Positions 36,110 through 56,239 of a stretch of DNA of 64,000 nucleotides are shown here, in pieces. Numbering within the stretch: position 1 is the first letter of the stretch; every line of letters starts with the position of its first letter. The translations under genes and the position numbers were made by a program. A model generated the notes under the pieces. That model was not told where the DNA came from, ran no database searches, and was given only the letters and a program-made list of their open reading frames with translations. This DNA comes from Massilia sp. Root351 (lineage in GTDB: Bacteria; Pseudomonadota; Gammaproteobacteria; Burkholderiales; Burkholderiaceae_D), in contig NZ_LMDJ01000005.1 of assembly GCF_001425045.1 (NCBI RefSeq), positions 1 through 64,000 of the forward strand, in the 5' to 3' direction.

Positions 36110-38446
36110 TTGACTGCCAACACTCCTGCATTGCCGAAGTGGCTCAACCGCCGCAATCTTATCCGCACCGCCGCCGTGGGCGGCATCGCCGCCGCGGCGG
36201 GCGCCGTCCTGCTGGGCGCCTACATGGTGCTGTTCATCGGCCCCAACCTGCCCGAGCTGGACGCCGTCACCGATTACCAGCCCAAGATCCCGCTGCGCAT
36301 CTACACGGCAGACAATGCCCTGATCGGCGAGTTCGGCGAAGAACACCGTGACTTCGTCGCCATCAAGGACGTGCCGGAGCTGATGAAGAAAGCCGTCCTC
36401 GCCATCGAGGACAAGCGCTTCTACGACCACGGCGGCATCGACTGGATACGCGCCATGGGCGCGCTCAAGTCCAACCTGCGCGGCAGCTTCCGCCAGGGCG
36501 GCTCCACCATCACCATGCAGGTGGCGCGCAACTTCTACCTGACGCGCGACAAGAAACTGGGCCGCAAGATGACCGAGGTCATGCTGTCCTATAAATTGGA
36601 AGGAGAGCTCAGCAAGGACAAGATCCTGGAGCTGTACCTGAACCAGATCTACCTGGGCCAGCGCTCTTACGGCTTCGCCAGCGCCTCGCAGGCCTATTTC
36701 AGCAAGTCGCTGAAAGAGCTGTCGGTTGCGGAAACGGCGATGCTGGCCGGCCTGCCGCAAAATCCGGCGCGCAACAACCCGGTGGCCAATCCCAAGCGCG
36801 CGCGCCTGCGCCAGCACCTGGTGCTGAAGGCCATGCGCGACCAGGGCGTCATCACCGCGGCGCAGTACGAGCAGGCGCTGAAGGAAACCTTGCACATCAA
36901 TCCGAAAGGCCAGGAGTTCGACGTGCACGCCGAATACGTGGCCGAGCTGGCGCGCCAGGCGGTGTACGAACAATACAAGGAAGAGTCGTACTCGCGCGGC
37001 ATCAGCGTCTACACCACCATCCTGAAGGCGGACCAGGAGGCGGCCTATGAATCGGTGCGCCGCAACGTGCTGAACTACGACCAGCGCCACGGCTACCGCG
37101 GCCCGGAAGCCTTCATCGACCTGCCTTCTGATCCGGATGAGCGCGAGGACGCCATCGACGAAGCGCTGCAGAAGCGCCGCAGCAGCGACCGGCTGATCCC
37201 GGCCGTGGTGCTGGCCGCATCGCCCAAGAGCGTGACGGTGGAGACCATCGACGGCGAGGAGCACGAGATCACCGGCGACGGCCTGAAGCTGGCGGCGCCC
37301 GGCCTGGGCGAGAAGGCCAAGGCCGGCCTCAGGCTGCGGCCCGGCGCCATCGTGCGCGTATCGCAAGTGGATAAGAAGCGCTGGGCGATCACCCAGGTGC
37401 CGCAAGTCGCGGCGGCCTTCGTGTCGCTGGATTCGGCCACCGGCGCCTACCACGCCATGGTGGGCGGCTTCGACTTCAACCTGCATCAGTTCAACCACGT
37501 TACCCAGGCCTGGCGCCAGCCCGGCTCCTCGATCAAGCCCTTCGTCTATTCGTCGGCGCTGGAAAAGGGCTACTTCCCCGGCACATTGATCAACGACGTG
37601 AAACTGTCCGACACCGGCGTGGACACCGGCGGCTGGGACCCGCAGAACGACGACAACGTCTACGACGGTCCCATCTCCATGCACGTGTCGCTGGCCAAGT
37701 CGAAGAACGTCACCTCGGTGCGCCTGCTGCGCGCGGTGGGCGTGCCCTACGCGCACGGTTTCCTGGACAAGTTCGGCTTCACGCCGTCCAGGCATCCGAC
37801 CAATTTGACCATGACGCTGGGCACCGGCGCCGTCACGCCGCAGCAACTGGCCGGCGCCTATTCGGTGTTCGCCAACGGCGGCTACCAGGTGCAGCCTTAC
37901 CTGATCTCGCGCATCGTCGACGGCAACGGCAAGGTGCTGTCCGAGACCAGGCCGCAGCAGGCGGCGCAGGAAGCCAACCGCGTGCTCGACCCGCGCAACG
38001 CCTTCATCACCGACACCATGCTGCGCGAAGTGGTACGCAGCGGCACCGGCGCGCAAGCCGGCGCGCGCCTGGGCCGGGCCGACCTGGCCGGCAAGACCGG
38101 TACCACCAACGACGCGGTGGACGGCTGGTTCGCCGGCTACGGCGGCGGCGTGGTCGGGGTCGCGTGGATGGGCTACGACGATCCGAAGTCGCTGGGTGGG
38201 CGCGAGTTCGGCGCCACCCTGGCCATGCCGATCTGGATCGACTACATGCGCGTGGCGCTGCAAAAGGCGCCGCCGCGCGAACGCCCCGTGCCCGAAGGCG
38301 TGGTGCAGGCCGAAGACGGTTCCTGGATCTACGCCGAATACCTCAACGACAATTCGGTGCGCACCATCGACCTCGATGGCCAGCCGCCGGCGCCGGTGCA
38401 GGAACCGGGCGCCACCAACGTCCAGCCCACGCCGGTACAACCGTAA
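36110..38446 (+). CDS. mrcA: Class A penicillin-binding protein 1A (glycosyltransferase/transpeptidase)
   Basis: A 778-residue bifunctional peptidoglycan synthase. The only in-frame start ahead of the N-terminal anchor is TTG at 36110, because a stop lies 12 nt upstream; ATG at 36097 is out of frame. One membrane segment (~22-43) is followed by the GT51 domain with the catalytic Glu in VLAIEDKRFYDHGG and RQGGSTITMQ. Next is the OB-like insert, then the transpeptidase with SxxK (PGSSIKPF), SxN (SKN) and KTG (AGKTGTT). It assembles cell-wall glycan and crosslinks in the periplasm. A hairpin terminator lies 139 bp downstream. Confidence 0.94.
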   Translation: MTANTPALPKWLNRRNLIRTAAVGGIAAAAGAVLLGAYMVLFIGPNLPELDAVTDYQPKIPLRIYTADNALIGEFGEEHRDFVAIKDVPELMKKAVLAIEDKRFYDHGGIDWIRAMGALKSNLRGSFRQGGSTITMQVARNFYLTRDKKLGRKMTEVMLSYKLEGELSKDKILELYLNQIYLGQRSYGFASASQAYFSKSLKELSVAETAMLAGLPQNPARNNPVANPKRARLRQHLVLKAMRDQGVITAAQYEQALKETLHINPKGQEFDVHAEYVAELARQAVYEQYKEESYSRGISVYTTILKADQEAAYESVRRNVLNYDQRHGYRGPEAFIDLPSDPDEREDAIDEALQKRRSSDRLIPAVVLAASPKSVTVETIDGEEHEITGDGLKLAAPGLGEKAKAGLRLRPGAIVRVSQVDKKRWAITQVPQVAAAFVSLDSATGAYHAMVGGFDFNLHQFNHVTQAWRQPGSSIKPFVYSSALEKGYFPGTLINDVKLSDTGVDTGGWDPQNDDNVYDGPISMHVSLAKSKNVTSVRLLRAVGVPYAHGFLDKFGFTPSRHPTNLTMTLGTGAVTPQQLAGAYSVFANGGYQVQPYLISRIVDGNGKVLSETRPQQAAQEANRVLDPRNAFITDTMLREVVRSGTGAQAGARLGRADLAGKTGTTNDAVDGWFAGYGGGVVGVAWMGYDDPKSLGGREFGATLAMPIWIDYMRVALQKAPPRERPVPEGVVQAEDGSWIYAEYLNDNSVRTIDLDGQPPAPVQEPGATNVQPTPVQP

Positions 38447-40599: not shown

Positions 40600-41304
40600 A
40601 TGGCGATGTCAAGACTCAGTATTACGATTACCGCACCCATCGCGCTGATTTCAGCGCTTGCCATCGGCCTGACGGTATTTCTCAACGTGGGCAAGCTTGA
40701 CCGGACGCTGGGCGAACTGGAAGACTCCCGCCTGCGTTTCACCATCAACGTGCTGCGCCAGAACCTGGAAACGGGGCTGGACCTGGGCCTGCCGGTGCGC
40801 AGCCTGGGCAACGCGCAGGCCGCCATGGAACTCGAAGCACGGCAGGACCCGGATATCGTCGCCCTGATTGTCAAGGACGACAAGGGCCGCGCGGCCTTCA
40901 GCACCGGGCGGCCGGCGCAAAGCGACAGCATCGTCCTCAGCACACCGCTCTCCAACAACCTGGGTGTCACGGTCGGCGCCATCGAGCTGCATTACTCGCG
41001 GCGCAGCCACGACCGTTTCATCGCCGGCATTTCGCGCCAGTTGCTGCTGGCCGGCCTGCTCGCCACCGTCCTGTCCACGCTGCTGGCGGTGCTCGGCACG
41101 CAACTGTGGGTGCGCCGCATCGGCCGCACGCTGGGCAGCATCGAACACACGCTGGACGCCAGTGCGCCGCCGGTGGCCAGGCCGGACCGGCACGCGGTCG
41201 CGCTGGCCGAGCAGGCGGCAGGCAGCGCCGGCCGGGCCTTGCGCGACCTGGAGCAGGCGCGGCGCGCCATCACCAGCAAGGACGTGGCGGGCGAAAAGCT
41301 ATGA
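40600..41304 (+). CDS. Two-TM protein with periplasmic sensor-like domain
   Basis: A 234-residue protein: TM1 (~8-28), a ~115-residue periplasmic region, TM2 (~146-168) and a helical cytoplasmic tail. The ectodomain resembles the single-Cache/PAS-like sensors of histidine kinases (NLETGLDLGLPVRSLGN, then DPDIVALIVKDDKGRAAFST), yet no kinase or cyclase output is attached. The same pattern occurs in the ectodomain of the next gene (ARALEHGIPLQRLEG, NRDLAYLRIADSSGAALYGS), so the two look paralogous and may form a heteromer. Its stop overlaps the next start as ATGA. I recognise no characterised homologue. Confidence 0.75.
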   Translation: MAMSRLSITITAPIALISALAIGLTVFLNVGKLDRTLGELEDSRLRFTINVLRQNLETGLDLGLPVRSLGNAQAAMELEARQDPDIVALIVKDDKGRAAFSTGRPAQSDSIVLSTPLSNNLGVTVGAIELHYSRRSHDRFIAGISRQLLLAGLLATVLSTLLAVLGTQLWVRRIGRTLGSIEHTLDASAPPVARPDRHAVALAEQAAGSAGRALRDLEQARRAITSKDVAGEKL

Positions 41305-43466
41305 GCCTTGCCTTGGCCCCTTCCGATAGCCACGAAGAACGCCTGTACACGCGGCCGGTGCGCCGCCTGTTCGTGTTCGCGCTGGCGCTGTTGCTGGCGG
41401 TGCAGCTGGCGCTGTCGCTGTATGCGTGGTCGCTGTCCGAGCGCGCGCTGCTGCCGGAGTTCGGGCGCAAGGCGCAAACCACCGGCGCGGCGCTGTCCGC
41501 ACAGCTGGCGCGCGCGCTGGAGCATGGCATTCCGCTGCAGCGCCTGGAGGGCGTGCCGGAATTCTTCGCCGATGTACTGAAGCAGAACCGCGACCTGGCC
41601 TACCTGCGCATTGCCGACAGCAGCGGGGCCGCGCTGTACGGCAGCACGCAGGCCGACAGCAGTGCGCCCGAGCAGTTTTACGACACCGCGCTGCCGTTGC
41701 TGCACCAGGGCCGCGTGGCCGGCCATTTGCACGTGGGCGTGGACAAGAACCACATCGCGGCGCGCGTGCGCGAACTGCGCTACGACATCGGCATTGTGCT
41801 CATCACCAGCCTGCTGATCGCCTTCGAGATCCTGTGGTTCGTGGTGACGCTGACCTTCACCGCGCCGATGCGCCAGATCCTGGCGCTGATGAGCAGCATG
41901 GCTGCCGGCGACTTCCGCCAGCGGGCGGCGCCGCCTCCGGGCGCGGCCATCGCCGCCCGCCTGCACGCCCTCACCGCGCGCATCAACCAGGGGTTCAGCG
42001 AACTGGTGCGCAGCGCATCCGCATTGCGCGAGGCCAGCCCGCAACAGGCGGCGCACGCCGAGCCGCTGCTGCAGCGCCTGCGCCAGGCGTACCGGTTCGG
42101 AGACGCCGCCGGCGTCCACGCGGGCGGCGGCCTGGGTGGCGACAGCGGCATCGATACGGCGCAGCAGCCCCGCATCGTGCTGGTGCGCGTACTCAGTTTC
42201 CTGTTCATGTTCGCGGAAATGCTGTCGCGCCCCTTTCTGCCGGTATATGCCGCCTCGCTGCCTTCAGGCGCCGTGGCGGGCCCGCTGCACGCCAGCCTTC
42301 CGGTCACCGCCTTCCTGCTCGGGGTAGCGCTGACCATGCCGTTCGCAGGCCACTGGTCGGACAGGCTGGGACGGCGCAGCAGCTACGTCGCCGGCGCGCT
42401 GGCCGTCATGGCCGGCCTGGCCGTCACCGGGCTGGTGCCCGACTACTACGCGCTGGTAAGCGCACGCGCCGTCACCGGCATGGGCTACGCGATCATGTTC
42501 ATGGCCTGCCAGGGCTATGTGTTCGACCATACCGACAGCAGCAACCGAGGCAAAGGCATGGCGCTGTTTGTGGGCGCCATCATGGTGGCGGAAATCTGCG
42601 CGCCGGCGGTGGGCGGCATCCTGGCCGACCGCGTCGGCTACCGCATGGTGTTCCTGCTGGGCGCCGCCGTGGCCTTGCTGGCGGCCGCCATTGCGGCGGC
42701 GGTGCTGAGCAAGGGCGCCGCCGACGGCCAGGCCGGTGCGCCGTCCTCGCTGCAGCCCGCGGCGCCGTCCGATGGCCTGGCAGCCGGGCAGCCCGCTGCG
42801 TTGAACGCCGGGCGCGGCGCGCCGCTGCTCGCGCGGCTGGCGCGCAACAAGCGCTTCCTGGCGCTGTCCATCCTGTCCGGCGTGCCCGCCAAGTTCCTCT
42901 ACTCCGGCTTCCTCATTTTCCTGGTGCCGGTGCTGCTGTCCGGGCTGGGACTGTCCAAGTCTGAAATTGGCCGCTATACCATGCTGTACGGCCTGAGCTC
43001 ACTGGCGCTGGCACCGCTGTTTGCCCACCTGGCGGACCGCTACAACGCCTACACGCCGCTGGTGGCGGCCGGCGGCCTGCTGACCGGGCTGGGAATGCTG
43101 CCGGTGGCCTGGGGCGCCAGCGGCGGCCTGGTCATGCTCGGCATCGGCGCGCTGGGAGTGGGCCAGTCGATGAGCATCTCCGCCCAGCTGGTGCTGGTGG
43201 CGCGCGTGACCCGGAAGGAAGCGCAGGATGCGGGCACCGGTCCCATCGTCGGCCTGTTCCGCCTGCTCGAACGCCTGGGCGCGGCGGCCGGGCCGGTCGT
43301 CACCGGCATGCTGGCGGCACGCTACGGGGCGGCGCAGGCCATGGCCTGCCTCGGCGTGTTCGCGCTGGCGGCGTCGCTGCTGTTCTCGCTGGTGTTCGCG
43401 GCGGCCGGTGCACGCGACAGGCGGGCCGCCGGCCGCGGCGGGGACGCTCCCGAGGTGGCGGCATGA
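41301..43466 (+). CDS. Sensor-HAMP-MFS fusion transporter
   Basis: 721 residues in one open frame. TM1 (~23-44), a periplasmic sensor-like domain (~45-160), TM2 (~163-186) and a HAMP-like region (~187-240, TAPMRQILALMSSMAAGDF) lead through a linker into a full MFS transporter (~291-700, about 12 TMs). The transporter carries motif A GHWSDRLGRRSSY. In ordinary proteins such a sensor-HAMP module drives a kinase, cyclase or chemoreceptor; here it is joined to a permease. The simplest reading is a transporter gated by an external ligand. Substrate and direction are unknown. It is linked by 4-nt overlaps to the genes on both sides. Confidence 0.82.
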   Translation: MSLALAPSDSHEERLYTRPVRRLFVFALALLLAVQLALSLYAWSLSERALLPEFGRKAQTTGAALSAQLARALEHGIPLQRLEGVPEFFADVLKQNRDLAYLRIADSSGAALYGSTQADSSAPEQFYDTALPLLHQGRVAGHLHVGVDKNHIAARVRELRYDIGIVLITSLLIAFEILWFVVTLTFTAPMRQILALMSSMAAGDFRQRAAPPPGAAIAARLHALTARINQGFSELVRSASALREASPQQAAHAEPLLQRLRQAYRFGDAAGVHAGGGLGGDSGIDTAQQPRIVLVRVLSFLFMFAEMLSRPFLPVYAASLPSGAVAGPLHASLPVTAFLLGVALTMPFAGHWSDRLGRRSSYVAGALAVMAGLAVTGLVPDYYALVSARAVTGMGYAIMFMACQGYVFDHTDSSNRGKGMALFVGAIMVAEICAPAVGGILADRVGYRMVFLLGAAVALLAAAIAAAVLSKGAADGQAGAPSSLQPAAPSDGLAAGQPAALNAGRGAPLLARLARNKRFLALSILSGVPAKFLYSGFLIFLVPVLLSGLGLSKSEIGRYTMLYGLSSLALAPLFAHLADRYNAYTPLVAAGGLLTGLGMLPVAWGASGGLVMLGIGALGVGQSMSISAQLVLVARVTRKEAQDAGTGPIVGLFRLLERLGAAAGPVVTGMLAARYGAAQAMACLGVFALAASLLFSLVFAAAGARDRRAAGRGGDAPEVAA

Positions 43467-44485
43467 AGCGGCGCGCACTCTGCCGTGCGGCGGCCATGCT
43501 GGCCCTGGGCAGCGGCCTGCCGCGCGCATGGGCGCAGCAATCGGCGATACGGCAAAGCAGCCGTCCGCCGCGCATCTACATGATCCTGTTCCGGGGCGAG
43601 ACCGCCGTCGAAAAAGGCTTCCGCGACTACTTCGCCGTCAACGGCATGCCGGTGGAGCTGATCGTGCGCGACGTCGCGCTGGATGTGGGCAAGGTCCCGC
43701 AGCTGGTCGCCGAAGCACGCGCCATGAAGGCAGACCTGATCTACACCTGGGGCACCCCCATCACGCTGGCGGTGGCCGGCAAGGAAGGCGCGGTCGATCC
43801 ATCCCGCCACGTCACCGACATCCCGGTCGTGTTCACCATGGTGGCCTCGCCGCAAGGCTCGGGCCTGGTCAAGTCGCTGGCCTCGTCGGGACGCAACATC
43901 ACCGGCGCCTGCCATGTGGTGCCGCCGGCGCAGCAGCTGAGCGCCATCCGCGCCTACCGCCGCTTCGAGCGCCTGGCCATCATCTACAACCCGGCCGAAC
44001 CCAACTCGGTACAGAACGTGAAGGACTTGCGCGCGGTGGCCGCCAGCGCGCGCTTCCAGCTGCTGGAACGGCCGGTGCCGCTGGACGCCAAGGGCCTGCC
44101 GCTGGCCGGCGCGCTGCCGGCCATGGTGGCCGAACTGGCGCAGCAGAATGCACAACTGCTCTACATCGGGCCGGACAGCTTTCTTGCCGCCAACCGCAAG
44201 GCGCTCACCGAGGCGGCACTGGCCGCGCGCCTGCCGGCCTTCTCGGCCACGGAAATCGCCCTGCGCGAGGGCAAGGCCCTGTTCGGCCTGGTTTCCGGCT
44301 ATGAGAGCGTGGGCCGGCTCACCGCCCACAAGGCGCAGCAGATCCTGCGCCAGCGCATGGCGCCGGCCGCCATTCCGATCGAAACGCTGGCGCGCTTCTC
44401 CTACCTCGTCAACATGCCGGTGGCGGCGCAGCTCGACCTCTATCCACCGCTCAAGGTGCTCAACTACGCGGAACTGCTGAAATGA
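43463..44485 (+). CDS. ABC-type substrate-binding protein (PF04392 type), orphan
   Basis: A 340-residue periplasmic protein with an N-terminal signal (~1-24, ending PRAWAQQ). The two-lobed fold of the ABC_sub_bind (TrpX-like) family is visible: IYMILFRGETAVEKGFRDYF, ADLIYTWGTPITLAVAGK, IPVVFTMVASPQGSGLV, RLAIIYNPAEPNS and LLYIGPDSFLAANR. No ABC permease or ATPase is present here, so it is an orphan. It may hand ligand to the sensor domains or the MFS fusion encoded upstream. Both ends overlap neighbours by 4 nt. Family members bind aromatic amino acids or other small molecules; the ligand is unknown. Confidence 0.85.
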   Translation: MKRRALCRAAAMLALGSGLPRAWAQQSAIRQSSRPPRIYMILFRGETAVEKGFRDYFAVNGMPVELIVRDVALDVGKVPQLVAEARAMKADLIYTWGTPITLAVAGKEGAVDPSRHVTDIPVVFTMVASPQGSGLVKSLASSGRNITGACHVVPPAQQLSAIRAYRRFERLAIIYNPAEPNSVQNVKDLRAVAASARFQLLERPVPLDAKGLPLAGALPAMVAELAQQNAQLLYIGPDSFLAANRKALTEAALAARLPAFSATEIALREGKALFGLVSGYESVGRLTAHKAQQILRQRMAPAAIPIETLARFSYLVNMPVAAQLDLYPPLKVLNYAELLK

Positions 44486-45177
44486 TCGACGCGTCCCCCG
44501 CCATTTGCAACAACGACCCGGCCTTCAGCTGGCGCCTGATGCGCGCCGGCGAGGCCGCTCTGGTGCACCGGCTGCACCGTGCCGCGCTGGCGCACGTCCC
44601 GCCGGGCATGGTGCGGCCCGATGAACTGGCCCATTTCGAGCGGCACGCCGCTACGCAGGGCCGTATCCTGTGCTGCTACGCGGACGGTGAACTGGTGGCC
44701 TACGGCGTGCTGGGACTGGACTCGGACGCGGTGGACCATATGGCCGAACTGCTGGGCGCCAGTCCTGCCGACCGCGCCCGCATGTGCGTGCTTGACGGCG
44801 CGGCATCGCTGCCGGAATGGCGCGGGCGGCGCCTGCACTGTGCCGCCATCGAGGAGCGCATGGCGCTGGGCCGCGAGCTGGGGCGCTCGCTGGTGACGGC
44901 CACGGTCGCGCCGGAAAACATGCGCAGCCTGCGCGGCCTGCTGCTGGAAGGATTCACCGTGCGCGGCTACGCCATCGTCTATGGCGGCCTGGCGCGCCTG
45001 CTGGTGCAGCGCGACCTGCTGCTGCCGGCGCAGGAGTGGACCGCTGCCCGCCGCATTGCCCATGGCGACCACGCAGGCCACCGGCGCGCACTGGCCGATG
45101 GCCTGCAGGGTTTCCACTGCTGGCAGGACGAGCACGAACACTGGTTCGTGGAGTACGGCCTAGCGCTTGGGCGCTAG
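44482..45177 (+). CDS. GNAT-family N-acetyltransferase-like protein
   Basis: A 231-residue cytoplasmic protein with a GNAT-type core: an N-terminal RAGEAALVHRLHRAAL, the central strands ILCCYADGELVAYGVLGLD, and a CoA-binding-like region (WRGRRLHCAAIEERMALGREL, then TATVAPENMRSLRGLLLEGF). The Q/RxxGxG/A loop is weak. It ends a four-gene unit linked by 4-nt overlaps, so it may modify the substrate the operon transports. Its 3' end overlaps the convergent FAD oxidoreductase by 18 bp. Assignment is by fold pattern, not by a known member. Confidence 0.72.
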   Translation: MIDASPAICNNDPAFSWRLMRAGEAALVHRLHRAALAHVPPGMVRPDELAHFERHAATQGRILCCYADGELVAYGVLGLDSDAVDHMAELLGASPADRARMCVLDGAASLPEWRGRRLHCAAIEERMALGRELGRSLVTATVAPENMRSLRGLLLEGFTVRGYAIVYGGLARLLVQRDLLLPAQEWTAARRIAHGDHAGHRRALADGLQGFHCWQDEHEHWFVEYGLALGR

Positions 45178-46722
45178 CGGAATGCTTTGCTCGAAACGGA
45201 ACAGATTGCCCGGATCGACGCGGCGCTTCACGTCGGATAGCTGGCCCAGGTTGCTGCCGTAGTAAGCCTGTGCCCAGTTCTTCAGGTCGCGGCTGGGGAA
45301 GTTGACATAGGACTCGGGCTGCAGGAAGCGCTGCATGTCGTCGTAGTAGTCCTTCAGCCAGGCACGCTGGCGCTGCACCGTCTCCGGTTTGTCGATCGGC
45401 CCCCAGGACGCTTCCATCTCGAAGATGAAGTTCGAATCGCGGTGCACATAGGCGGTGGCGTTGCTGGGCACCGCCTTCACCTGGCCGCCGATGGCGAACA
45501 GGATGCCCATGTTCTCCTGCAGCACCGAGCCGCCTGGCCAGCGCGTCATCCACGTCAGCATATTGTCCATGGCGGCCTCGCTCAGCGCCGTCTTCACGAA
45601 GCTGCAGCGGATGTCGTATAGGCCGTTCGGGTCATCGGTCAGCAGGTAGTCGCGGCCGCGCCAGTAGTCCACCTCGTAGATGTCGGCCGTCTGCGGCACG
45701 GCGACCGCGTACAGTGGCGCCAGCATCTCGCGCAGTTCCTTCTCGCCGCCCCAGAACTGGCCCAGCGTCTGCACGTACAGCGAGTCGCGCGCGGGCCGCG
45801 CACCAGCCGCCATTGGCAGCGCCTTGCTGCGCGTGGAAATCATGGTTGGGTAGGTCAACTGCAAGGCCTGCAAGGCGCGCAGCAGTTCGATCTGCTTTCC
45901 CGGCGCCCAGCTCAGGTTGAAGGTGGTGACCTTGTCCACCTTGTGCAGCTTGAAGGTGAAGCCGGTATGCACGCCGAAATTGCCGCCGCCGCCGCCGCGC
46001 ACCGCCCAGAACAGCTCCTTGTGGCTGTTCGCATCGATGCTGCGCGCCTCGGCGCTGGCCAGCACCAGTTCCGTGCCCAGCAAGCTGTCGCAGGTCAGCC
46101 CGTCGTGCGTGGCGGCGAAGCCCCAGCCGCCGCCCAGCACCAGGCCGCTGGTGCCCACGGTCGGGCAGCGGCCGGACGGAATCGCATACGGATAGTTGCG
46201 CAGCACGGCGGCCACGTCGTTGTTGTTGGCGCCGCCCTGCACCCACGCAGTCTCATTCTTCAAGTCCACCGTCACGCTGTTCATCGCTTTCACGTCGATC
46301 AGCAGCCCGGCAGTGGTGGAAAAGCCCGCATAGTTGTGGCCGCCGGAACGGATGGCGAACGGCATGCCGCTGTCGCCGGCCCAGCGAATGCAGCGCTGCA
46401 CGTCGCGCTGGTTGGCGCACATGGCCACCGCCTGCGGCAGCACGCCCGAATAGCGCGCGTTGTTCGGCCAGGCCGCCAGCGCATAGCCATCCTGGCCCGG
46501 CAGGATCAGGCGTCCGTCGAAGTCCCGCGCCAATGCGCGCAGCCCGTCCGGCCCCAGCTTCAGCGCCGGCCTGGCCAGCACCGCGGCGGGCGCCAGGCTG
46601 AGCGCCGCGGCGCCCAGCGCGCCCGCAGCCCCGGTCTGTAAAAAGCGGCGCCGCCCGCTCGCCACGCTGTCCTGTACCTGTGTCCGTGCCCGCACGTGCA
46701 ATTCCCCGGTGTTACTCGTCAT
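45160..46722 (-). CDS. Tat-exported FAD-linked oxidoreductase, berberine bridge enzyme type
   Basis: A 520-residue protein. A twin-arginine signal (SGRRRFLQTG, then a hydrophobic core to ~50) directs folded export. The FAD_binding_4 domain has the covalent His in RSGGHNYAGFST and the covalent Cys in PSGRCPTVGTSG, so the flavin is probably attached at two points. LGGGWGFAATHDGLTCD follows, and the C-terminal BBE motif is YVNFPSRDLKNWAQAYYG. These enzymes oxidise sugars or alcohols with oxygen. The start at 46722 has AAAGGAG upstream and lies 11 bp inside the end of the kinase gene, so both are one transcript. Confidence 0.92.
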   Translation of the reverse strand: MTSNTGELHVRARTQVQDSVASGRRRFLQTGAAGALGAAALSLAPAAVLARPALKLGPDGLRALARDFDGRLILPGQDGYALAAWPNNARYSGVLPQAVAMCANQRDVQRCIRWAGDSGMPFAIRSGGHNYAGFSTTAGLLIDVKAMNSVTVDLKNETAWVQGGANNNDVAAVLRNYPYAIPSGRCPTVGTSGLVLGGGWGFAATHDGLTCDSLLGTELVLASAEARSIDANSHKELFWAVRGGGGGNFGVHTGFTFKLHKVDKVTTFNLSWAPGKQIELLRALQALQLTYPTMISTRSKALPMAAGARPARDSLYVQTLGQFWGGEKELREMLAPLYAVAVPQTADIYEVDYWRGRDYLLTDDPNGLYDIRCSFVKTALSEAAMDNMLTWMTRWPGGSVLQENMGILFAIGGQVKAVPSNATAYVHRDSNFIFEMEASWGPIDKPETVQRQRAWLKDYYDDMQRFLQPESYVNFPSRDLKNWAQAYYGSNLGQLSDVKRRVDPGNLFRFEQSIPLAPKR

Positions 46723-49417
46723 CCCGTTCCGCTCCTTTTGGTTGATGTCCCAGTTTTCCCCGCTGCTTCTCGCGCTCGCGCTGCCGCAGCACGTCTATCA
46801 TGACGTTGAAAGTGCGCGCCAGCCGGCCGATCTCGTCGGTGCTGGTCACCTTGATGCTGGCGCGGTCATAGTCGCCGTCCTTGAGCGCATTGGCCGCCTC
46901 GGTCAGCCGCACCACCGGGCGCGTGATGGTGCGCGCAAACAGCACCGCCAGTATCAGAAACACCAGGCCGACCGCCGCCACGCTGTACAGCACATTGACG
47001 AACAGGCGCTGCAGCGGCTCCTCGAAGCGGGCGCGCGACTCGGTCACGCCGACCACCCAGTTGTGGCCCTGCACCGGCGCGTAGCCGGCGTGCTCGTCGC
47101 GCCCGGTCAGGGTCGAGTGGAAGCTGATATTGCCGGCGGTCTTCGCACCGATCAGCACCTTGGCCAGTTCCGGCATGTCCACGCTCTCGATGCGGTGGCG
47201 CCGGAAGCGCTGATCGGCGATGATGCGGCCGAGCGTGGCCTTGGGCAGCGGCGCCAGGCTGCGGTAAAGCTGGTTCTGGTCCGGGTAGTGCACCAGGATG
47301 CCGTCGCCGTCTATCATGAACGGCACCCGCTTGCTGGTTTCGTTCCCGCCTGCGCTCGCTTCGTCCAGGATGGCCGAGATGGTACCGCCCTTGATGCGCA
47401 TCACCACCACGCCGATCACCTTTTTGCTGTCGTCGAAGACAGGATTGGCGTAGTACACGCCAGGCTTGCCCGCCGTGGCGCCGATGATCACGCCGGTCAT
47501 GAAGGGGCGGCCCTTCATCGCTTCCTGGAAGTACTCGCGGAACTTGAAATTCACGCCGGCCACGCCGGGTTCGCTGGACACCAGCGCCGTGCCCTCCTTA
47601 TCCATCAGGAAGATCAGGTGCGCGTCCGGGTTGGTCTTGATCAGGTTGGCCAGTTTGGCGCTCACCACTTCCCGTTTCGCTGCGCTGGGCGCACGCAGGT
47701 AGTCGATGAAGGCCGCGTCGGTGGCCAGGTAGCTGGCCTGGTAGCGGCTGTCCAGTATCAGCTGCGAGATGCGGCCGGCCGTTGCCTGCGCCAGGCTCTC
47801 GAGATTGCGCAGTTCGCTGGCCGACACGGCGGCCACCGATCCATTCAGGTTGTAGTAGGCGGTGATGGTCATCGGCAGCAGCGCGGCCAGCATCATGGCG
47901 ATGGTCATTTTCACCACCAGCGGCCACGATGCAGGGCGCCAGATGGCCTTGCCTAGCTTGCGCACGCCTTTCTTCAGCCGGCGCTGGCCATCCTGTTCGC
48001 CCACCCGTAGCGCTTCCTGCAAGCCAAGGCTGCCGGCGTGCGAGGCGAACAGCCGCTGCGACAACTCCGCAATGCTCTGCGGCCGCTGTGCCGGATCGAC
48101 CGCCAGCGCCCAGTCGACCGCGGCCAGGAATTCCTCGCTATAGCGGCCCTGGCCGGCCTGGACCGCAGGAATGTACTCGGCCACGCCGCTGTGGCGCTCG
48201 GGCGCCGGCGCCGGCTTGGCGCCGGTGACCATCCAGTACAAGGTGGCGCCGACCGCGTAGATATCGGTCCACGGCCCCTGCTCGCCGCCCTGGTACTGTT
48301 CCAGCGGCGCATAGCCCGGTGTGACCACGTCGGCCATGGCCTGCATCCCGCCCACGGTCAGCCGCGCCGCGCCGAAGTCGAGCAGCACCCAGCTGCCGTC
48401 TTCCTTGCGCACATAGACGTTGTCGGGCTTGATGTCGCGGTGCAGATAGCCCGAGTCATGCACCAGCGACAGGCCGTCGAGCAGCGGCTGCACCAGCGAC
48501 AGCAGTTGCTGCTCACCCATGTCCTTGTGCTTGTCCCACCACTGCTTGAGCGGCTGGCCGCGTTCGTATTCCAGCACCATGTAGGCAGTGCGGTGCGCTT
48601 CGAAGAAGCGCGCCACGCGCACGATGTTCGAGTGCCGGAAGGTGGCCAGCGTGCGCGCCTCTATCAGGAAGCACTCCAGGCCGTTCAGGTAGAACTCGTT
48701 ATCCTCGGGCCAGCGCGGCGACACGGAACGGTCGCTGGCGCGGGTGGCGAAATCGGCTGGCAGGTACTCCTTGATGGCCACCCGTACGTTCAGGTTCACG
48801 TCGGTTGCCAGATAGGTGATGCCGAAGCCGCCCTGCCCCAGCACCGCGTCGATGCGGTACTCGAACAGCTCGAAGCCCGGCGCCAGCGCCAGCGGCGTGG
48901 AAATGCCGGGGCCGATGGAGCGGTTCGGCGCGGCGGGCAAGGCGGGCAGCTGGGAGCGCACCGGCTGCGAGCGCGGAGCAGAGCGGCCCAGCGTGGGCGT
49001 GGTGGGCCGCGTGGGCTGGGTTGGCTGGGTTGGTTGAGTAAGCTGGCCATGCTGCCCGTGCCGCGCCTGCAGCGCCTCGCGCCGCGTCGGTTCGCGGGTG
49101 CCGTCCGGCCGGTAGTGCGGCACCGGTATGGTGGCGTCGTCATCGTAGGCATGCTGCGCGCCGTGCGGGCGCGGCACGGTGATGTCGGCCTGCCCGTCGC
49201 GCGCGGCCAGCTGGTCGGTTGCGGCGCGTGCAGTCATTTCCTGCACGTCCCGCATGCGGCGCTCGACGGCGACCACGGCTTCCAGCGCAGCCACGCGGCG
49301 CGCCAGGATGGCGGCACGCGCCTCGGCGGCGGCGTTGCGGCCGGAATCGGCACTATCCGCCTGCCCTCCGTCGTCCCCTGATCCGTCCCGCTGCCCGCGC
49401 TGTTCGCTATCGTCCAT
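46712..49417 (-). CDS. PpkA-like serine/threonine kinase with periplasmic dCache sensor and HAMP
   Basis: A 901-residue membrane kinase. A charged N-terminus and a Pro/Thr linker built from 9-bp repeats (~125-142) precede the kinase domain (~187-450): glycine loop LGQGGFGITYLA, Lys216 in VAIK, HRDIKPDN (326-333) and DFG (347-349). TM1 (~502-522), a two-lobed Cache ectodomain (~525-815), TM2 (~818-843) and a C-terminal HAMP (~844-890) follow. It phosphorylates the FHA protein TagH in the threonine-phosphorylation control of T6SS, as PpkA does in Pseudomonas. The opposing PP2C gene is divergent, 119 bp away. The oxidoreductase gene overlaps its 3' end. Confidence 0.92.
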   Translation of the reverse strand: MDDSEQRGQRDGSGDDGGQADSADSGRNAAAEARAAILARRVAALEAVVAVERRMRDVQEMTARAATDQLAARDGQADITVPRPHGAQHAYDDDATIPVPHYRPDGTREPTRREALQARHGQHGQLTQPTQPTQPTRPTTPTLGRSAPRSQPVRSQLPALPAAPNRSIGPGISTPLALAPGFELFEYRIDAVLGQGGFGITYLATDVNLNVRVAIKEYLPADFATRASDRSVSPRWPEDNEFYLNGLECFLIEARTLATFRHSNIVRVARFFEAHRTAYMVLEYERGQPLKQWWDKHKDMGEQQLLSLVQPLLDGLSLVHDSGYLHRDIKPDNVYVRKEDGSWVLLDFGAARLTVGGMQAMADVVTPGYAPLEQYQGGEQGPWTDIYAVGATLYWMVTGAKPAPAPERHSGVAEYIPAVQAGQGRYSEEFLAAVDWALAVDPAQRPQSIAELSQRLFASHAGSLGLQEALRVGEQDGQRRLKKGVRKLGKAIWRPASWPLVVKMTIAMMLAALLPMTITAYYNLNGSVAAVSASELRNLESLAQATAGRISQLILDSRYQASYLATDAAFIDYLRAPSAAKREVVSAKLANLIKTNPDAHLIFLMDKEGTALVSSEPGVAGVNFKFREYFQEAMKGRPFMTGVIIGATAGKPGVYYANPVFDDSKKVIGVVVMRIKGGTISAILDEASAGGNETSKRVPFMIDGDGILVHYPDQNQLYRSLAPLPKATLGRIIADQRFRRHRIESVDMPELAKVLIGAKTAGNISFHSTLTGRDEHAGYAPVQGHNWVVGVTESRARFEEPLQRLFVNVLYSVAAVGLVFLILAVLFARTITRPVVRLTEAANALKDGDYDRASIKVTSTDEIGRLARTFNVMIDVLRQREREKQRGKLGHQPKGAERDDE

Positions 49418-49536: not shown

Positions 49537-50427
49537 TTGGGGAACTGGAAGCAATTATCACCGTCGGCGCTGCACCGCCTGGACCTGGGACTGGCCTACG
49601 GCCTGACCGATGTGGGCACGGTGCGCGAGTCCAACCAGGATAATTTCTTCATCGCCCCGGACCTGGGCCTGGTGGTCGTGGCCGACGGCATGGGCGGCCA
49701 CGAGGCGGGGGAAATCGCCAGCGCCGACGCCATCAACCTGCTGCACAGCTTTATCCGCGCCGCGCACAGCGGCCAGCAGGCCACGCCCGGGGAGGCTGGC
49801 GCCGCCAGCGACGCCACCATCCCGGCCTTCCACCCCAGCGCCTTCGACCCGGTGCAGGCCGATCCCGACGCCACCTGGACCGACGCCACCATGCGCGCCA
49901 TGATCACGCTGCACGACGCGGTTGAATTCGCCAACGAGCGCATGTACCAGACCAACACCGCGAACGACCAGGCCGACGGCGCCGGCATGGGCACCACGCT
50001 GACCGGCATCTGGCAGGTGGCGCAGGATGGGCCGGTATTCATCTTCCACATCGGCGACAGCCGCCTGTACTGCTTCCGCCAGGGCCGCCTGAGCCAGCTC
50101 ACGCGCGACCAGACGCTGTACCAGCAGGCGCTGGAAGCGGGCATGCCGGAACCGCTCCCCGCGCGCAACCTGCTGCTGCAGGCGCTCGGACCGGCGCCGC
50201 TGATCAAGCCGGACCTGCAAACGCAAGCGGTCGCGCCGGGCGACGTTTATCTGCTGTGCAGCGACGGCCTGTACGGCAATTCGCCGCCGGAAGCCATCGC
50301 CGCCACGCTGGCACGCGTGCGCGACGATAACCTGGGCGAGTGCTGCGCCGAGCTGGTGGCCATGGCCAAGCGCGACGGCAGCCGCGACAACATCACCGCC
50401 GTCATCGTGCGCTGCAAGGACGCGTAA
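49537..50427 (+). CDS. PP2C-family serine/threonine phosphatase (PppA/Stp-like)
   Basis: 296 residues from a TTG start at 49537, preceded by TGGAG six nt upstream; this fits the PP2C N-terminus better than the in-frame ATG 72 nt earlier. Metal-binding motifs are RESNQDNFF, VVADGMGGHEAGE, HIGDSRLY and the terminal SRDNITAVIV. It removes phosphate from T6SS proteins set by the neighbouring kinase, as PppA opposes PpkA. It is transcribed away from the kinase, towards the convergent tagF gene (70-bp gap). Confidence 0.92.
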   Translation: MGNWKQLSPSALHRLDLGLAYGLTDVGTVRESNQDNFFIAPDLGLVVVADGMGGHEAGEIASADAINLLHSFIRAAHSGQQATPGEAGAASDATIPAFHPSAFDPVQADPDATWTDATMRAMITLHDAVEFANERMYQTNTANDQADGAGMGTTLTGIWQVAQDGPVFIFHIGDSRLYCFRQGRLSQLTRDQTLYQQALEAGMPEPLPARNLLLQALGPAPLIKPDLQTQAVAPGDVYLLCSDGLYGNSPPEAIAATLARVRDDNLGECCAELVAMAKRDGSRDNITAVIVRCKDA

Positions 50428-50496: not shown

Positions 50497-51180
50497 TCAG
50501 GCGCCCCAGCCGGTCTGCAGCCACGTCCCCGTGAGCATGCCGGCGAAGGCGGCCGGTGCAGGCAAGCCGCGGCACAGCAGCAAGCTCGGTTCCACTTCCG
50601 CCGATCCATCGGTCCACCACACGCTTTGCCCGCGCAGCGCCGCGGCAGCCAGCGCGGGCACTTGCGCGCCCACTGCGTCCAGCGACGCGAGCGGCAGGCG
50701 GCAACCCGCGCCGCCCAGCTGGCCGGCCAGCGGCGCATCGCTGAGCGGCGGCATCGCTTGCAGCAAGCCATCGAACGGCTCGAGCTGGAAGCGCTCATCC
50801 AGCGAGGACAGGGCCAGCGCCTCCAGCTGGTCGAACCACGGCTTGCCGTTGGCCACCCAGTCCAGCAAGCCGCCGCCGCCCGGCGCACCGGCCGCTATCG
50901 TCAACGGAAAATGCCGCCCCACCCGATCCACGCTGGGCATCAGCAACCCGGCCCAGGCATTGCGGTCGCATGCGCCGGGCGCCAGCGCGAAGCGCCACAC
51001 CGGGCTGGTGAGATAGGTCTGCAGCCAGCGCGGCCCCAGCGCCTCGCGGCTGCCCTGGATGGATGCCTGCAGCCATGCGTCCCACACGCCCAGCAGCGAC
51101 GGCGGCAGGCGCCGCGACACAAAGTCGCCGTGCGTACTCACCTTGCCAAAGAAGCCGGGCGCCAGTTCGGGTTCTTCCAT
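50497..51180 (-). CDS. tagF: T6SS-associated protein TagF (ImpM family)
   Basis: A 227-residue TagF/ImpM protein: PGFFGKVSTHGDFVSRRLP at the N-terminus, ALGPRWLQTYLTSPVWRF and GLLMPSVDRVGRHFPLTI are the family signatures. TagF dampens T6SS assembly post-translationally in Pseudomonas, upstream of the FHA protein. The ATG at 51180 overlaps the tssM stop as TGATG; a GTG one codon earlier is possible. It is the last gene of the minus-strand T6SS operon. Confidence 0.93.
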   Translation of the reverse strand: MEEPELAPGFFGKVSTHGDFVSRRLPPSLLGVWDAWLQASIQGSREALGPRWLQTYLTSPVWRFALAPGACDRNAWAGLLMPSVDRVGRHFPLTIAAGAPGGGGLLDWVANGKPWFDQLEALALSSLDERFQLEPFDGLLQAMPPLSDAPLAGQLGGAGCRLPLASLDAVGAQVPALAAAALRGQSVWWTDGSAEVEPSLLLCRGLPAPAAFAGMLTGTWLQTGWGA

Positions 51181-54100
51181 CACAGCGACTCCAGGCAGCG
51201 GAACTGCTCCACCCCATCCCGCCTGAATGGATTGTTGACGCTGTTGGCGGTCAGTTCGTAGATCATCTTGCGGCCGTCCAGGTCAAAGGTCAGCTTGTAG
51301 CGTTCGCCCTGCGCGGAGGGTTCCAGCATGCCCTTGTCCAGCATGCGGAACCAGGCCCAGGCGCCCTCGGTGCGCAGCTCGGCCGTGGTGGCGGGCGCGA
51401 CGTCGAACCGCACCGCGTTGACGCCTTTGCCGCTCGGGATCTGGAAACTGGCCGCGCCTTGCGCCGCCTTCGGCGCGAACGCCAGCTGCTGGCCATCCAC
51501 ATCCAGCACCACTTTCGTCAGCGCCGCATCGGCCGCCAGCGGCTTCAGGTCGAAACGCACGGAGGCCTGCTTGCCGCCATTGCCGAAGAATTTGTCGCGG
51601 ATCTGCGCGGCGCGCTGGAACTGGGTCAGCACTTCCTGGTCCATGCCGAGGTCCATGTTGTTGACCACGCGCCAGCGCCACTGCGCGCCGCTGGTGTCCA
51701 CGTAGTTGACCAGGTGCTTCTGGAAGAACTCGTCGGCCAGGCCGCCAGGGCCGAAGAAGCGGCCAAAGTCGTCCGGCGTGGCTTCCTGCACGGCCTTGCG
51801 CACCAGCGGGTAGCGGCCGGCAATGGCGGCGCGGCAGAACAGCGCGGGGCCGGTCTTCCACAACGCATCGAGGCGGTCGCGCTCCGTGCCCAGCGTGAGG
51901 CCGGTGCCGGCCGTGTCCACGCTGCGCACCAGCGCGCCGAGCGGGGCGGGCAGGCTGTCCGCCTCGCGCTTCAATTTTGCCAGCGCGTCCGCCGGGGGCG
52001 CGGGCTGGCCGGCGGCGCGCGCGGCGTTGGCGGCGTCCAGGTAAACCGCCACGTCCTTCAGCTTGAGCAGCACGCCATCCAGGCCGGACGGACCGGTGGC
52101 GCCGGCGGCGCCGAGGGTCCCGCCGCCCGCCTCCACCATCTTGTGCAACGGCGCGAAATGGATGTCGACCGGGTTCACGGGCCGCACGTCGGCCGGCAGC
52201 ACGTCCTGTGCGCCGTCGCTGAGCGCGGACTCCAGGCGCCGCTTGGCCGCGTCGCTGAGCTGCTTGACGGTGTCGGTGGCGGCGTCCACGCTGGACTTGG
52301 CCGTCTTCAGCTTGTCCAGCCGGGTCTGTTTCGCAGCCGCCTGCAGGAATTTGCGCAGCGGCGACTCCTGGCTGGACACGCTGTTGATCACGCGCGCCGC
52401 CTGGTCCAGGCTGGTAAACGGCACCAGCGTCACGTCCGCCAACAGCCCGTCCCACAGCCGGATGTACTCCTCGAAATACATCTGCTGCACCACGGCTTTC
52501 ATTTGCGCCGCGCTCTCCAGGCTGTCCACCGCTTCGCGCTGGTCCAGCACCCAGCTGTCCTTCACCACGTCCGCGATGGCGCCGTCGATCTGCTCGGTGA
52601 ATTTCTTGTAGCCCGCCAGCGTGAAGGAGCCGGCAATGCCGCGCGTGAGCGGCAAGCCGCTCTGGCGCGCCAGCACCACGCCGGCGTCGCGCCCGGCGGC
52701 GGCAGTAACGTCGAAATCCGGCACGCCCGCACTGGCCAGGCTGCGCTTCAGGCGGGTGTAGACGCGCTCGCCCATCGGCAACTTGGCCAGGCTGAGACGT
52801 ACCCGGGCGATCAGCGCCCGGTCCAGCTGCGGCGGCGCCTCGGCCTGGCTGGACGGCGCCAGCATCGCGGCCACATGCTGCGACAGATCCTGGCGCTGCA
52901 ACTCATTCGCTTCCGGCAGGTTGCGGCTCCAGTCGTAATCCAGCCAGGCGCGCACCGCTTCCGGGTCCAGGCGATTGCGTTCGCCCAGCATGATGTAGAC
53001 GCGCAGCAGTTCATACAGGTACTCGGGATTGTTGGCGGTGCCGCGCCGCAGCTGGGTCTCCATCTGGTCCAGGATGCGCGGCAGCAGCGCCTCGCGCAGC
53101 ACGCGCTGGTAGGCGCCCTGCGCGCCTTCGCCCAGCTTGCCGCCCTGGTACAGGCCCAGCCCCATCAGGAACGGCACTTCCTGGCCCTGGCTGCGGTAGC
53201 CGCCGGGAATGTCGCGCAGCGCGTTCAGTAACGGCAGCGCGGCCACCGGCGACGGATCTTTCGGCAAGGCGCGCGCCAGCTGGTCGATTTCCGCCGTGCG
53301 CGCCGCCACGTCGTTCACATAGCCCTGGTTGCGCACATAGCTGGTGAGCAGGCCTGCCGATACCAGCAGCAGCACGGCGGCGGTCAGCGCGTACGCGCCC
53401 CATTGCAGCCAGCGGCGGTTGCGTTCCAGGCGCAGGTTGGCGCCGGCCAGTTCGCTCTCCTGGAACACCACGTCGCGCAGCAGCCGCGTGATGAAGTAGC
53501 TGCGCCCGCCGAAGGCATTGGCCGGCAGCACCTTGCGGTCCAGGCCGAAACTGGCGGCCAGCGTGGACATGACACGGTCGATCGGACTGCCTTCCTGGGT
53601 TCCGCTGGTGAAGTACACACCGCGCACCAGCGCGGCCTCCTCGTAGGAGGTGGATTCGAAGACGTCGGTGAGGAAGGCTTCCAGCACGTCGCCGATGGCG
53701 GCGAACTGCTGCGGGAAGTTGTACATCAGCGCGCGGCGCTGGATGTCGCGCTCCTGCTGCATGCGTTCGAACAGGCGCGCCTGCAGCTGCGCCTGCAGCG
53801 CATCGAATTCGGCCGGGAAGGCTTTCAGGCCGGCATCCGCCTGCTCCGCCGAGGCCAGCGGGAAGGTGACGCCCCAGACCTGCGTGCGTTCGTCGCGGCC
53901 AAGGTTGTCGAAGAACTCGACGAAACCGGCCAGCAGGTCGCACTTGGTGACGATGACATAGACCGGGAAGCGGATGCCCAGCTCCTCGTGCAGTTCCTTG
54001 ATGCGCGCGCGGATCGCCAGCGCCTGCACGCGGCGTTGCCCCTCGCCTTGCTGCAGCAGGTCCGCCACGCTGAGTGCAACGATCACGCCGTTGATGGGAC

Positions 54101-54764
54101 GGCGGCGGCGATGCTTGCGCAGCAGTTGCAGGAAGCCCTTCCACGCGGCCTGGTCCACTTCGGTGTAGCTGTCCTGGGTGGTGTAGCGGCCGGCCGTGTC
54201 AAGCAGCACGGCTTCGTCGGTGAACCACCAGTCGCAATTGCGGGTGCCGCCCACGCCGCCGATGGCGCCTTTGCCATGCGTGTCCGAGAGCGGAAATTTG
54301 AGGCCGGAATGCACCAGGGCCGTGGTCTTGCCGCTGCCGGGCGCGCCCACGAACATATACCACGGCAGCTGGTACAGGCCGCCGCCGCCAAAGCGGCTGC
54401 CCGCTTTCGATTTGCGCAGCACCGCCATGGCGTCCTGCAGGCGCTTGGCCAGCACCGCCATTTCGGCGGCGCTTTCCTTCTGGCCCGGCGCCACGGCCGG
54501 CGCCGCGGCGGGATCGCCGGCCACGCTTTTCATCAGGCGGCGTTCGGCCAGGCGCGCGCGCAGCAGCTTCCAGCCGAAGTAGAGCGCCCAGGCCAGGAAC
54601 AGCAGCGCGATGAAGAACCAGCGCACGCCGGTCGCGGCGAACGGCTCCTTGCCGTCGAAAGCCAGCAACGGCGCCTCGAACCAGAAGATCAGGGACAGCA
54701 GCAGCACGCCGAAGAAGGCCAGCACGGGCGGCTTGATGAGCCAGTTGAAAAAGCGTTTGATCAT
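51180..54764 (-). CDS. tssM: T6SS membrane-complex protein TssM (IcmF/VasK)
   Basis: A 1194-residue inner-membrane protein, near the usual ~1100-1200. TM1 (~14-35) and TM2 (~46-67) precede the cytoplasmic domain with Walker A GAPGSGKTT (140-148) and VLLDTAGRYTTQD as Walker B. TM3 (~450-470, YALTAAVLLLVSAGLL) is followed by the long periplasmic part, ending in the IcmF C-terminal domain (KLTFDLDGRKMIYELTA near the end). It forms the trans-envelope channel with TssL. Both ends overlap neighbours (4 nt with tssL, 1 nt with tagF). Confidence 0.96.
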   Translation of the reverse strand: MIKRFFNWLIKPPVLAFFGVLLLSLIFWFEAPLLAFDGKEPFAATGVRWFFIALLFLAWALYFGWKLLRARLAERRLMKSVAGDPAAAPAVAPGQKESAAEMAVLAKRLQDAMAVLRKSKAGSRFGGGGLYQLPWYMFVGAPGSGKTTALVHSGLKFPLSDTHGKGAIGGVGGTRNCDWWFTDEAVLLDTAGRYTTQDSYTEVDQAAWKGFLQLLRKHRRRRPINGVIVALSVADLLQQGEGQRRVQALAIRARIKELHEELGIRFPVYVIVTKCDLLAGFVEFFDNLGRDERTQVWGVTFPLASAEQADAGLKAFPAEFDALQAQLQARLFERMQQERDIQRRALMYNFPQQFAAIGDVLEAFLTDVFESTSYEEAALVRGVYFTSGTQEGSPIDRVMSTLAASFGLDRKVLPANAFGGRSYFITRLLRDVVFQESELAGANLRLERNRRWLQWGAYALTAAVLLLVSAGLLTSYVRNQGYVNDVAARTAEIDQLARALPKDPSPVAALPLLNALRDIPGGYRSQGQEVPFLMGLGLYQGGKLGEGAQGAYQRVLREALLPRILDQMETQLRRGTANNPEYLYELLRVYIMLGERNRLDPEAVRAWLDYDWSRNLPEANELQRQDLSQHVAAMLAPSSQAEAPPQLDRALIARVRLSLAKLPMGERVYTRLKRSLASAGVPDFDVTAAAGRDAGVVLARQSGLPLTRGIAGSFTLAGYKKFTEQIDGAIADVVKDSWVLDQREAVDSLESAAQMKAVVQQMYFEEYIRLWDGLLADVTLVPFTSLDQAARVINSVSSQESPLRKFLQAAAKQTRLDKLKTAKSSVDAATDTVKQLSDAAKRRLESALSDGAQDVLPADVRPVNPVDIHFAPLHKMVEAGGGTLGAAGATGPSGLDGVLLKLKDVAVYLDAANAARAAGQPAPPADALAKLKREADSLPAPLGALVRSVDTAGTGLTLGTERDRLDALWKTGPALFCRAAIAGRYPLVRKAVQEATPDDFGRFFGPGGLADEFFQKHLVNYVDTSGAQWRWRVVNNMDLGMDQEVLTQFQRAAQIRDKFFGNGGKQASVRFDLKPLAADAALTKVVLDVDGQQLAFAPKAAQGAASFQIPSGKGVNAVRFDVAPATTAELRTEGAWAWFRMLDKGMLEPSAQGERYKLTFDLDGRKMIYELTANSVNNPFRRDGVEQFRCLESL

Positions 54765-56233: not shown

Positions 56234-56239
56234 CTTGGC

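Follow-up and report, generated by a model that had tools for sequence, protein, structure and literature searches.

A Cache-HAMP-MFS fusion operon beside type VI secretion genes in Massilia sp. Root351, a candidate solute-sensing input to Ser/Thr phospho-control

A Four-Gene Operon in Massilia sp. Root351

We analyzed a 64,000-nucleotide stretch of DNA from Massilia sp. Root351 (contig NZ_LMDJ01000005.1, positions 1 to 64,000; hereafter the window) and focused on an operon of four genes, g1 to g4 (Table 1), that encode a predicted Cache-type membrane receptor, a fusion of a Cache sensor and a HAMP domain to an MFS transporter, a solute-binding protein of family PF04392 and a GNAT-fold acetyltransferase. 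Judged from its sequence and gene neighborhood, the operon may sense a solute and feed this information into Ser/Thr phospho-control, in this genome that of a type VI secretion system (T6SS), an interpretation to which we give an about even chance of being correct. An earlier note, made from the sequence alone, had given the gene positions and the three ATGA junctions exactly; it read the operon as a self-contained transport system and overlooked the kinase, PP2C-type phosphatase, TagF and T6SS genes next to it.

ATGA overlaps at positions 41301, 43463 and 44482 connect the four genes at all three junctions. In the ten loci of the window type (the window and L029-L037; L and G numbers are our handles for loci and genomes), the four-base overlap is kept at each of the three junctions without exception, with GTGA replacing ATGA at the g1-g2 junction in four of them. 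Translational coupling of g1 to g4 is likely. A promoter scan gave no match and terminator matches were no commoner than in shuffled sequence, an uninformative outcome; a plasmid search yielded no match at E ≤ 1e-40.

Table 1. Coordinates of the operon genes and of neighboring genes in the window
Feature	Position	Strand	Description
g1	40600..41304	+	234 amino acids; predicted two-helix membrane receptor, single Cache-like domain, short coiled-coil tail
g2	41301..43466	+	721 amino acids; Cache sensor-HAMP-MFS fusion
g3	43463..44485	+	340 amino acids; PF04392 solute-binding protein; signal peptide judged by eye
g4	44482..45177	+	231 amino acids; acetyltransferase with a GNAT fold and a C-terminal addition; optional member
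PBP1a-type penicillin-binding protein	36131..38446	+	Marks a chromosomal neighborhood that the g3-only loci also have
Ser/Thr kinase-dCache-HAMP protein	46712..49417	-	PpkA-type position; Pkinase 1.3e-34, dCache_1 3.6e-27, HAMP 5.9e-15
PP2C-type phosphatase	49537..50427	+	PppA-type position; PF13672 1.4e-11
TagF homologue	50497..51180	-	T6SS-associated; TagF_N 1.9e-46
T6SS genes	51180..63240	-; TssC +	TssM, TssL-OmpA, TssK, FHA (T6SS_FHA_C), VgrG, DUF4280 (minus strand); TssC (plus strand)

Properties of the Encoded Proteins

A Pfam scan of g1 gave no match. Its AlphaFold model, with a predicted local distance difference test (pLDDT) score of 89.6, contains a Cache/PDC-like sheet flanked by two long helices, and its best matches among solved structures include the sensor domains 4onx, 3cwf and WalK, which are individually weak, with a single row at E ≤ 0.001. 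The model agrees with a Cache fold placed between two helices, the fold matches being weak. Instead of the stand-alone ectodomain protein that had been proposed, we predict for g1 a membrane receptor with two helices and no output domain. Since the g1 profile repeatedly matches the sensor part of g2 as well, with weak scores (roughly 15-40 bits) that recur in many loci, the two sensors look like paralogues; contrary to the original description, the four gene families are not all unrelated.

The transporter part of g2 is clearly recognized by Pfam (MFS_1, 1.2e-39), while its HAMP (0.0054) and sCache_3_2 (0.0016) matches lie below the curated cut-offs; the HAMP assignment is supported by profile matches to the solved HAMP-bearing chains 9trk and 6s18. 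In profile searches, the closest solved relatives of the MFS part were NorA, VMAT2, EmrB and MdfA, and it resembles drug/amine proton antiporters. Among 87 aligned members, Glu657 and Arg658 are present in all, as is Gly438, and Arg389 and Gly439 are each found in 85; D/E354 (76/87) and G357 (86/87) are further antiporter-like positions. We take D/E354, G357, R389, G438 and G439 to represent motif A, the Arg of transmembrane helix 4 and motif C of drug:proton antiporters (DHA). Retention of Arg389, Gly438, Gly439, Glu657 and Arg658 argues for a working MFS carrier rather than a decayed one. Against the curated NCBIfam drug-efflux models, the best 25 of 47 rows for g2 all fell below the cut-off (e.g., TIGR00880 with 78.7 bits, where 131 are needed).

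The g3 protein belongs to the ABC_sub_bind family (PF04392, 5.4e-23); 3lkv, 6hni and 3lft are its solved relatives, and with 91 bits it scores far below the cut-off of 390 bits of the TrpX model. Members of PF04392 presumably have the CmpB-type permease PF06541 as their partner. This permease, the only permease family that we searched for, was found in none of the 25 genomes carrying the operon, and the control search was positive in Lactococcus. An ordinary PF04392-dependent ABC importer of the TrpXYZ type was rejected on this ground, and the initial view of g3 as an orphan binding protein gained support as far as this permease is concerned.

For g4, the Pfam match to Acetyltransf_1 (0.0049) is below the cut-off; its structural model (pLDDT 93.8) has a GNAT fold, with Z about 17 in structure comparison across residues 14-183. 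In an alignment of 21 rows, R114 and G115 are conserved in at least 90% and L118 is invariant, a region that we assume to form the acetyl-CoA loop. Protein and small-molecule acetylases, YncA and PaiA included, were near-tied in the fold comparison, which names no substrate, and the search for a solved relative by sequence gave none that was convincing (one row at E 0.24).

Spread and Conservation of the Unit

To survey the occurrence of the operon, here called the unit when it is considered across genomes, we combined a motif scan of the genomes of 84,980 species, from which the best 80 of 145 relatives were kept, with loci from relatives of the strain and from order, phylum and class samples; the thresholds differ among these sources. 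Clustering of 118 MFS parts at 90% identity gave 95 groups, and 87 remained after eight distant ones (score ≤ 350) had been dropped; 67 of the 87 loci have more than 5 kb of sequence on both sides. Locus counts rest on six-frame profile searches, and the simple gene caller miscalled genes in, for example, L054, L072, L101, L132, L140 and L167.

The g3 gene lies within 2.5 kb of the fusion gene in 84 of the 86 testable loci, downstream and on the same strand in 79 of them, and a chance gene order was rejected on these counts. A second Cache sensor accompanies the fusion in 84 of 87 loci, either encoded by its own gene at a distance of up to 1.5 kb (72 loci) or in tandem within the g2 protein itself (12 loci). 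One of the 72 separate genes, that of L107, lies downstream of a g2 copy that is truncated at the contig end before its sensor, the contig beginning inside g2. The three loci that lack a second sensor comprise two cut by a contig end and L086, the one exception seen. Tandem-sensor fusions occur, for instance, in L041 (968 amino acids; G034 has a 968-residue protein) and L148 (855 amino acids), and these natural fusions provide independent evidence from sequence that g1 and g2 act together. The assertion that the transporter has its own sensor and a paired second one is thereby supported, as is that of a conserved unit, which reaches well beyond the genus.

Hosts of the unit are found among the alpha-, beta- and gammaproteobacteria, the myxobacteria (Corallococcus) and in a spirochaete; Pseudoduganella, Rugamonas and Massilia are named near relatives that possess it. 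In distant loci, g3 is the best conserved component, with a median identity to the window protein of 41.7% (n 59), followed by the MFS part with 35.9% (n 62), the sensor-HAMP part of g2 with 29.5% (n 61) and g1 with 28.6% (n 49). In the taxonomic samples, the unit is present in 8 genomes out of 398 for the phylum, 3 out of 274 for the class and 19 out of 399 for the order, the strain's own genome included.

Relatives of g4 were detected at 25 of 79 loci and at none of the other 54; a GNAT protein as an essential core part was rejected on this count. A test of the genes next to the MFS fusions, as the earlier note had suggested, therefore came out in favor of the binding protein and only in part for the GNAT protein. 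When the 25 carrier genomes were searched with the g4 profile (E ≤ 1e-8), 14 possessed a single copy and 11 had none, and all 14 copies sit at the unit. Because g4 occurs at 25/79 loci, yet all of its copies in carrier genomes are located at the unit, the GNAT protein is optional but dedicated to it. In 148 relatives, g4 matches were confined to 12 genomes, ten of them at units, one weak (G078) and one partial (G070, residues 23-174). G070 has no g2 match; g1 to g3 are missing between the genes for a lipase foldase and the kinase, and the partial g4 that remains there (L042:3596-4048) is read as a relic of the unit.

Other enzymes for small molecules were encountered at some loci. An ATP-grasp protein similar to D-Ala-D-Ala ligases is encoded at L100:10058-11107, with homologues at L104 and L070; in Corallococcus its gene is positioned between g2 and g3, and in L070 beside g1 of a second set. 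This neighbor hints at an amino acid or a dipeptide as ligand. An alanine-racemase-like protein is present at L112. In three Firmicutes loci (L113, L116 and L117), distant MFS fusions are associated with a binding protein of the Peripla_BP_6 type beside genes for C39 peptide exporters, a parallel version that uses a binding protein of a different family; several short, similar proteins are encoded upstream in L116.

Linkage to Ser/Thr Kinase, Type VI Secretion and Partner-Switching Genes

Genes of the T6SS threonine-phosphorylation pathway (TPP) are found together in a T6SS cluster of the window (kinase, PP2C, FHA and TagF; 46.7-59.1 kb). In copy number, homologues of the kinase follow the unit. 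In 20 selected genomes we counted 18 full-length kinase homologues (eight partial matches, E 1e-87 to 1e-60, were left out), 16 of which are beside an intact unit and one beside the partial g4 of G070. G238 and G336 each contain two units and two kinases, one kinase per unit. Among the 399 order genomes, where scoring was limited to the two best candidates of each genome, the kinase (E ≤ 1e-150) is represented by seven copies in five genomes, and all seven are beside a unit, the unit itself being present in 19. The kinase gene is divergent from g1 in L040, L067 and L134 and convergent after g4 in the window; its position changes, and its closeness to the unit stays.

T6SS genes flank 20 of the 67 loci with sufficient sequence, corresponding to 9 of 38 groups at 60% identity. 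On a quick tree of the MFS parts, which has several long branches, this neighborhood underwent seven state changes, due in part to short flanks, as the window-type loci L032, L033 and L037 show no T6SS gene in view. The arrangements differ: the unit is at the edge of the control module in the window, after TssF-TssG in Oceanospirillum, and inside the T6SS operon in Vibrio, between ClpV and FHA-TssK-TssL-TssM. Genes for SpoIIE phosphatases were observed within 7 kb of 10 of the 67 loci, in comparison with one to three SpoIIE copies per genome in 13 checked genomes, and RsbW-like and STAS genes at seven and five loci, respectively. Taken together, T6SS, kinase, SpoIIE or RsbW genes adjoin 40 of the 67 loci (T6SS 20; kinase, SpoIIE or RsbW 20 more); such neighbors are found at 17 of 20 loci with g4 versus 23 of 47 without it.

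A Proposed Solute-Sensing Input to Phospho-Control and Its Alternatives

If the operon provides a solute-sensing input to Ser/Thr phospho-control, the periplasmic g3 protein would capture a small, probably amino-acid-like molecule and, once loaded, would dock onto the paired Cache ectodomains of g1 and g2 in a manner similar to NspS-MbaA. We propose this pairing because of the paralogy of the two sensors, their constant co-occurrence and the natural fusions. HAMP may then relay the signal to the MFS part, which resembles proton antiporters and would export the molecule or adjust how much of it is present; the neighboring Cache-HAMP kinase may receive the signal across the membrane. Kinase, PP2C, TagF and FHA would in turn set T6SS assembly, a step described in other species and represented here by the genes alone. 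The cytoplasmic GNAT protein, in view of its exclusive linkage to the unit, might make or disarm the molecule. In other lineages, the same receptor is encoded beside SpoIIE/RsbW/STAS partner-switching genes or inside a T6SS operon.

Several observations weigh against this interpretation. At 27 of the 67 loci, no T6SS, kinase, SpoIIE or RsbW gene is present within the available flanks, and many of the compared loci are from close relatives; when grouped at 45% identity, T6SS genes occur in only 4 and the kinase in only 3 of 23 groups. The chance rate of a T6SS neighbor, about 1 locus in 67, is an estimate that assumes a cluster of 25 kb and a genome of 5 Mb, and not a measured value. Five of the 13 SpoIIE control genomes had been picked for a SpoIIE gene beside the unit. 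In G074, unit and kinase are far apart. Extra flanks of the kinase-type loci in G109, G238, G336 and G474 (L169-L180) revealed no T6SS genes; a T6SS is therefore not needed for the link to the kinase. Finally, g3 is not strictly tied to the transporter: in 146 relatives, 27 g3 copies were found, 16 of them at units and 11, all in the same genus, without g1 or g2.

In these 11 g3-only loci (L155-L159 and L161-L166), g3 comes after a PBP1a-like gene; the PBP1a-like protein of L161 is 66% identical to that of the window, and in the other ten loci this gene was judged from its length and N-terminus only. A PP2C gene adjoins g3 in seven of the 11 (L159 and L161-L166), overlapping it by four bases in L161 (7122-8842) and L162, and the PP2C protein of L161 is 54% identical to its counterpart in the window. 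Copies of g3 therefore occur in the absence of the transporter, often remaining next to a gene for a Ser/Thr phosphatase.

One alternative is a sensor-gated efflux and detoxification cassette, in which the sensors and g3 would detect a toxic compound, the GNAT protein would acetylate it and the MFS part would export it, the T6SS and the neighbors for ribosomally synthesized and post-translationally modified peptides (RiPPs) or polyketides reflecting a shared competition niche. Besides the resemblance of the carrier to NorA, EmrB, MdfA and VMAT, its antiporter-like residues, and a GNAT fold whose matches include, besides others, the small-molecule acetyltransferases YncA and PaiA, this explanation can draw on a C39 ABC exporter that is located no more than 7 kb away at 4 of the 67 loci, all of them oxalobacterial, and on the polyketide synthase (PKS) beside the unit of G034. 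These two neighborhoods likewise speak against an input to phospho-control, as does the second unit of Massilia Root418, which has a C39 ABC exporter beside it instead (L098/L160). We nevertheless consider the cassette unlikely, as no MFS efflux pump that works with a binding protein is known to us, the GNAT protein is missing at most loci, and the kinase, SpoIIE and T6SS links would be left unexplained.

Another view is that the unit has a function of its own and that its travelling close to T6SS and signaling genes is incidental. The loci lacking any such neighbor in the available sequence and the patchy distribution in the phylum, class and order samples are what it would predict; it does not account for the kinase copy number that tracks that of the unit, for the closeness that persists while the position shifts, or for the Vibrio unit within the T6SS operon, and we regard it as improbable.

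A bolder variant treats the operon as a self-contained chemical signaling cassette with an exporter as receptor. A cytoplasmic enzyme, the GNAT protein here and the ATP-grasp or alanine-racemase-like proteins at some loci, would make or edit an amino-acid-derived signal that the MFS part exports and g3 catches, and the paired Cache domains would report its level both to the HAMP-controlled exporter and to Ser/Thr phospho-control (T6SS or partner switching). This would be a receptor class with a transporter as HAMP output and would give T6SS firing a chemical input that conveys cell density or kinship; we advance it as a speculative and rather doubtful proposal. Least convincing, and in our judgment very unlikely, is a binding-protein-dependent, Cache-HAMP-tuned MFS uptake system for an amino-acid-like nutrient, which comes near the working model of the earlier note and agrees with g3 adjoining nearly all carriers in genomes free of the CmpB-type permease, but conflicts with an MFS part that is nearest to exporters by profile and with the g3 copies that occur without it, seven of them next to PP2C, and leaves the regulatory neighbors unexplained.

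Relation to Known Systems

The solute-sensing input to phospho-control that we favor can be compared with the known entry points of the TPP pathway, which starts at TagQRST in Pseudomonas aeruginosa and at the periplasmic RtkS in Serratia marcescens (PMC10482370). TagTS has been described as ABC-transporter-like, and for RtkS a small-molecule ligand is one suggested possibility; the protein reportedly shows no relation to the small-molecule binding proteins known so far (PMC10482370, PMC6082577). In Agrobacterium, the TPP input is an unknown protein according to the review (PMC10482370), and the Azoarcus olearius genome is reported to be without TagQRST homologues, a different signal being assumed (PMC6423157). 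In the parts of these publications that were covered, TagQRST and RtkS are the only TPP inputs identified. Both consist of periplasmic or membrane proteins that act on PpkA, the role proposed for the operon with its kinase, and are accompanied by PppA, Fha and TagF; as described in these parts, neither includes the Cache-HAMP-MFS fusion, the PF04392 protein or the GNAT protein. TagQ, TagR and TagST were not among the Pfam-scanned genes of the window at 46.7-64 kb, the part of the genome to which this search was confined. For a further betaproteobacterial lineage, the operon is a concrete candidate for a TPP input, and standard assays could identify the ligand of its binding protein.

In NspS-MbaA, as far as the sources covered describe it, a binding protein works with a transmembrane receptor, and MbaA modulates cyclic di-GMP. 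LuxP-LuxQ likewise pairs a binding protein with a transmembrane receptor, LuxQ being a histidine kinase. At the level of genes, the operon shares with NspS-MbaA a binding-protein gene beside a sensor gene and the absence of the PF06541 permease from the carrier genomes; it differs from both systems by the transporter that follows HAMP and by a second receptor without output. By analogy, the unit might work like a binding-protein-assisted receptor whose output has been replaced by a transporter. If so, it would embody a receptor design in which HAMP addresses a transporter and not an enzyme or a kinase.

BtrUVW and RsbUVW are partner-switching systems with SpoIIE phosphatases, and they are reminiscent of the context of the unit in several lineages, where SpoIIE, RsbW-like and STAS genes adjoin it. 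Unlike them, the unit lacks SpoIIE, RsbW and STAS domains of its own, and none was found among the scanned genes beside the window operon. TrpX-type importers have PF04392 in common with g3, and their relation to the unit ends at the PF06541 permease that its carrier genomes lack. In a literature search that left most subscription papers outside its coverage, neither the combination of a HAMP-MFS fusion and a PF04392 protein nor the four-gene set was found described, in keeping with the earlier note, to which no described system with this set was known.

Neighboring Genes and Further Observations

Upstream of the operon in the window are the genes for PBP1a, a lipase and its foldase. A gene for a berberine-type oxidoreductase lies downstream, before the kinase gene, and is present at only some of the related loci. 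The T6SS gene cluster continues past the end of the window (L167).

At L092:11783-13777, we noticed a second g1-like gene together with a gene whose 665-residue product partly resembles g2 at the N-terminus and has no match in Pfam; a SpoIIE phosphatase gene comes next. Genes for CesT-type secretion chaperones are located near SpoIIE/RsbW versions of the unit (L071:4738-5196 and L137:6-458). The region L040:13647-17660 encodes the large subunit of a ribonucleotide reductase that carries an intein with a LAGLIDADG domain.

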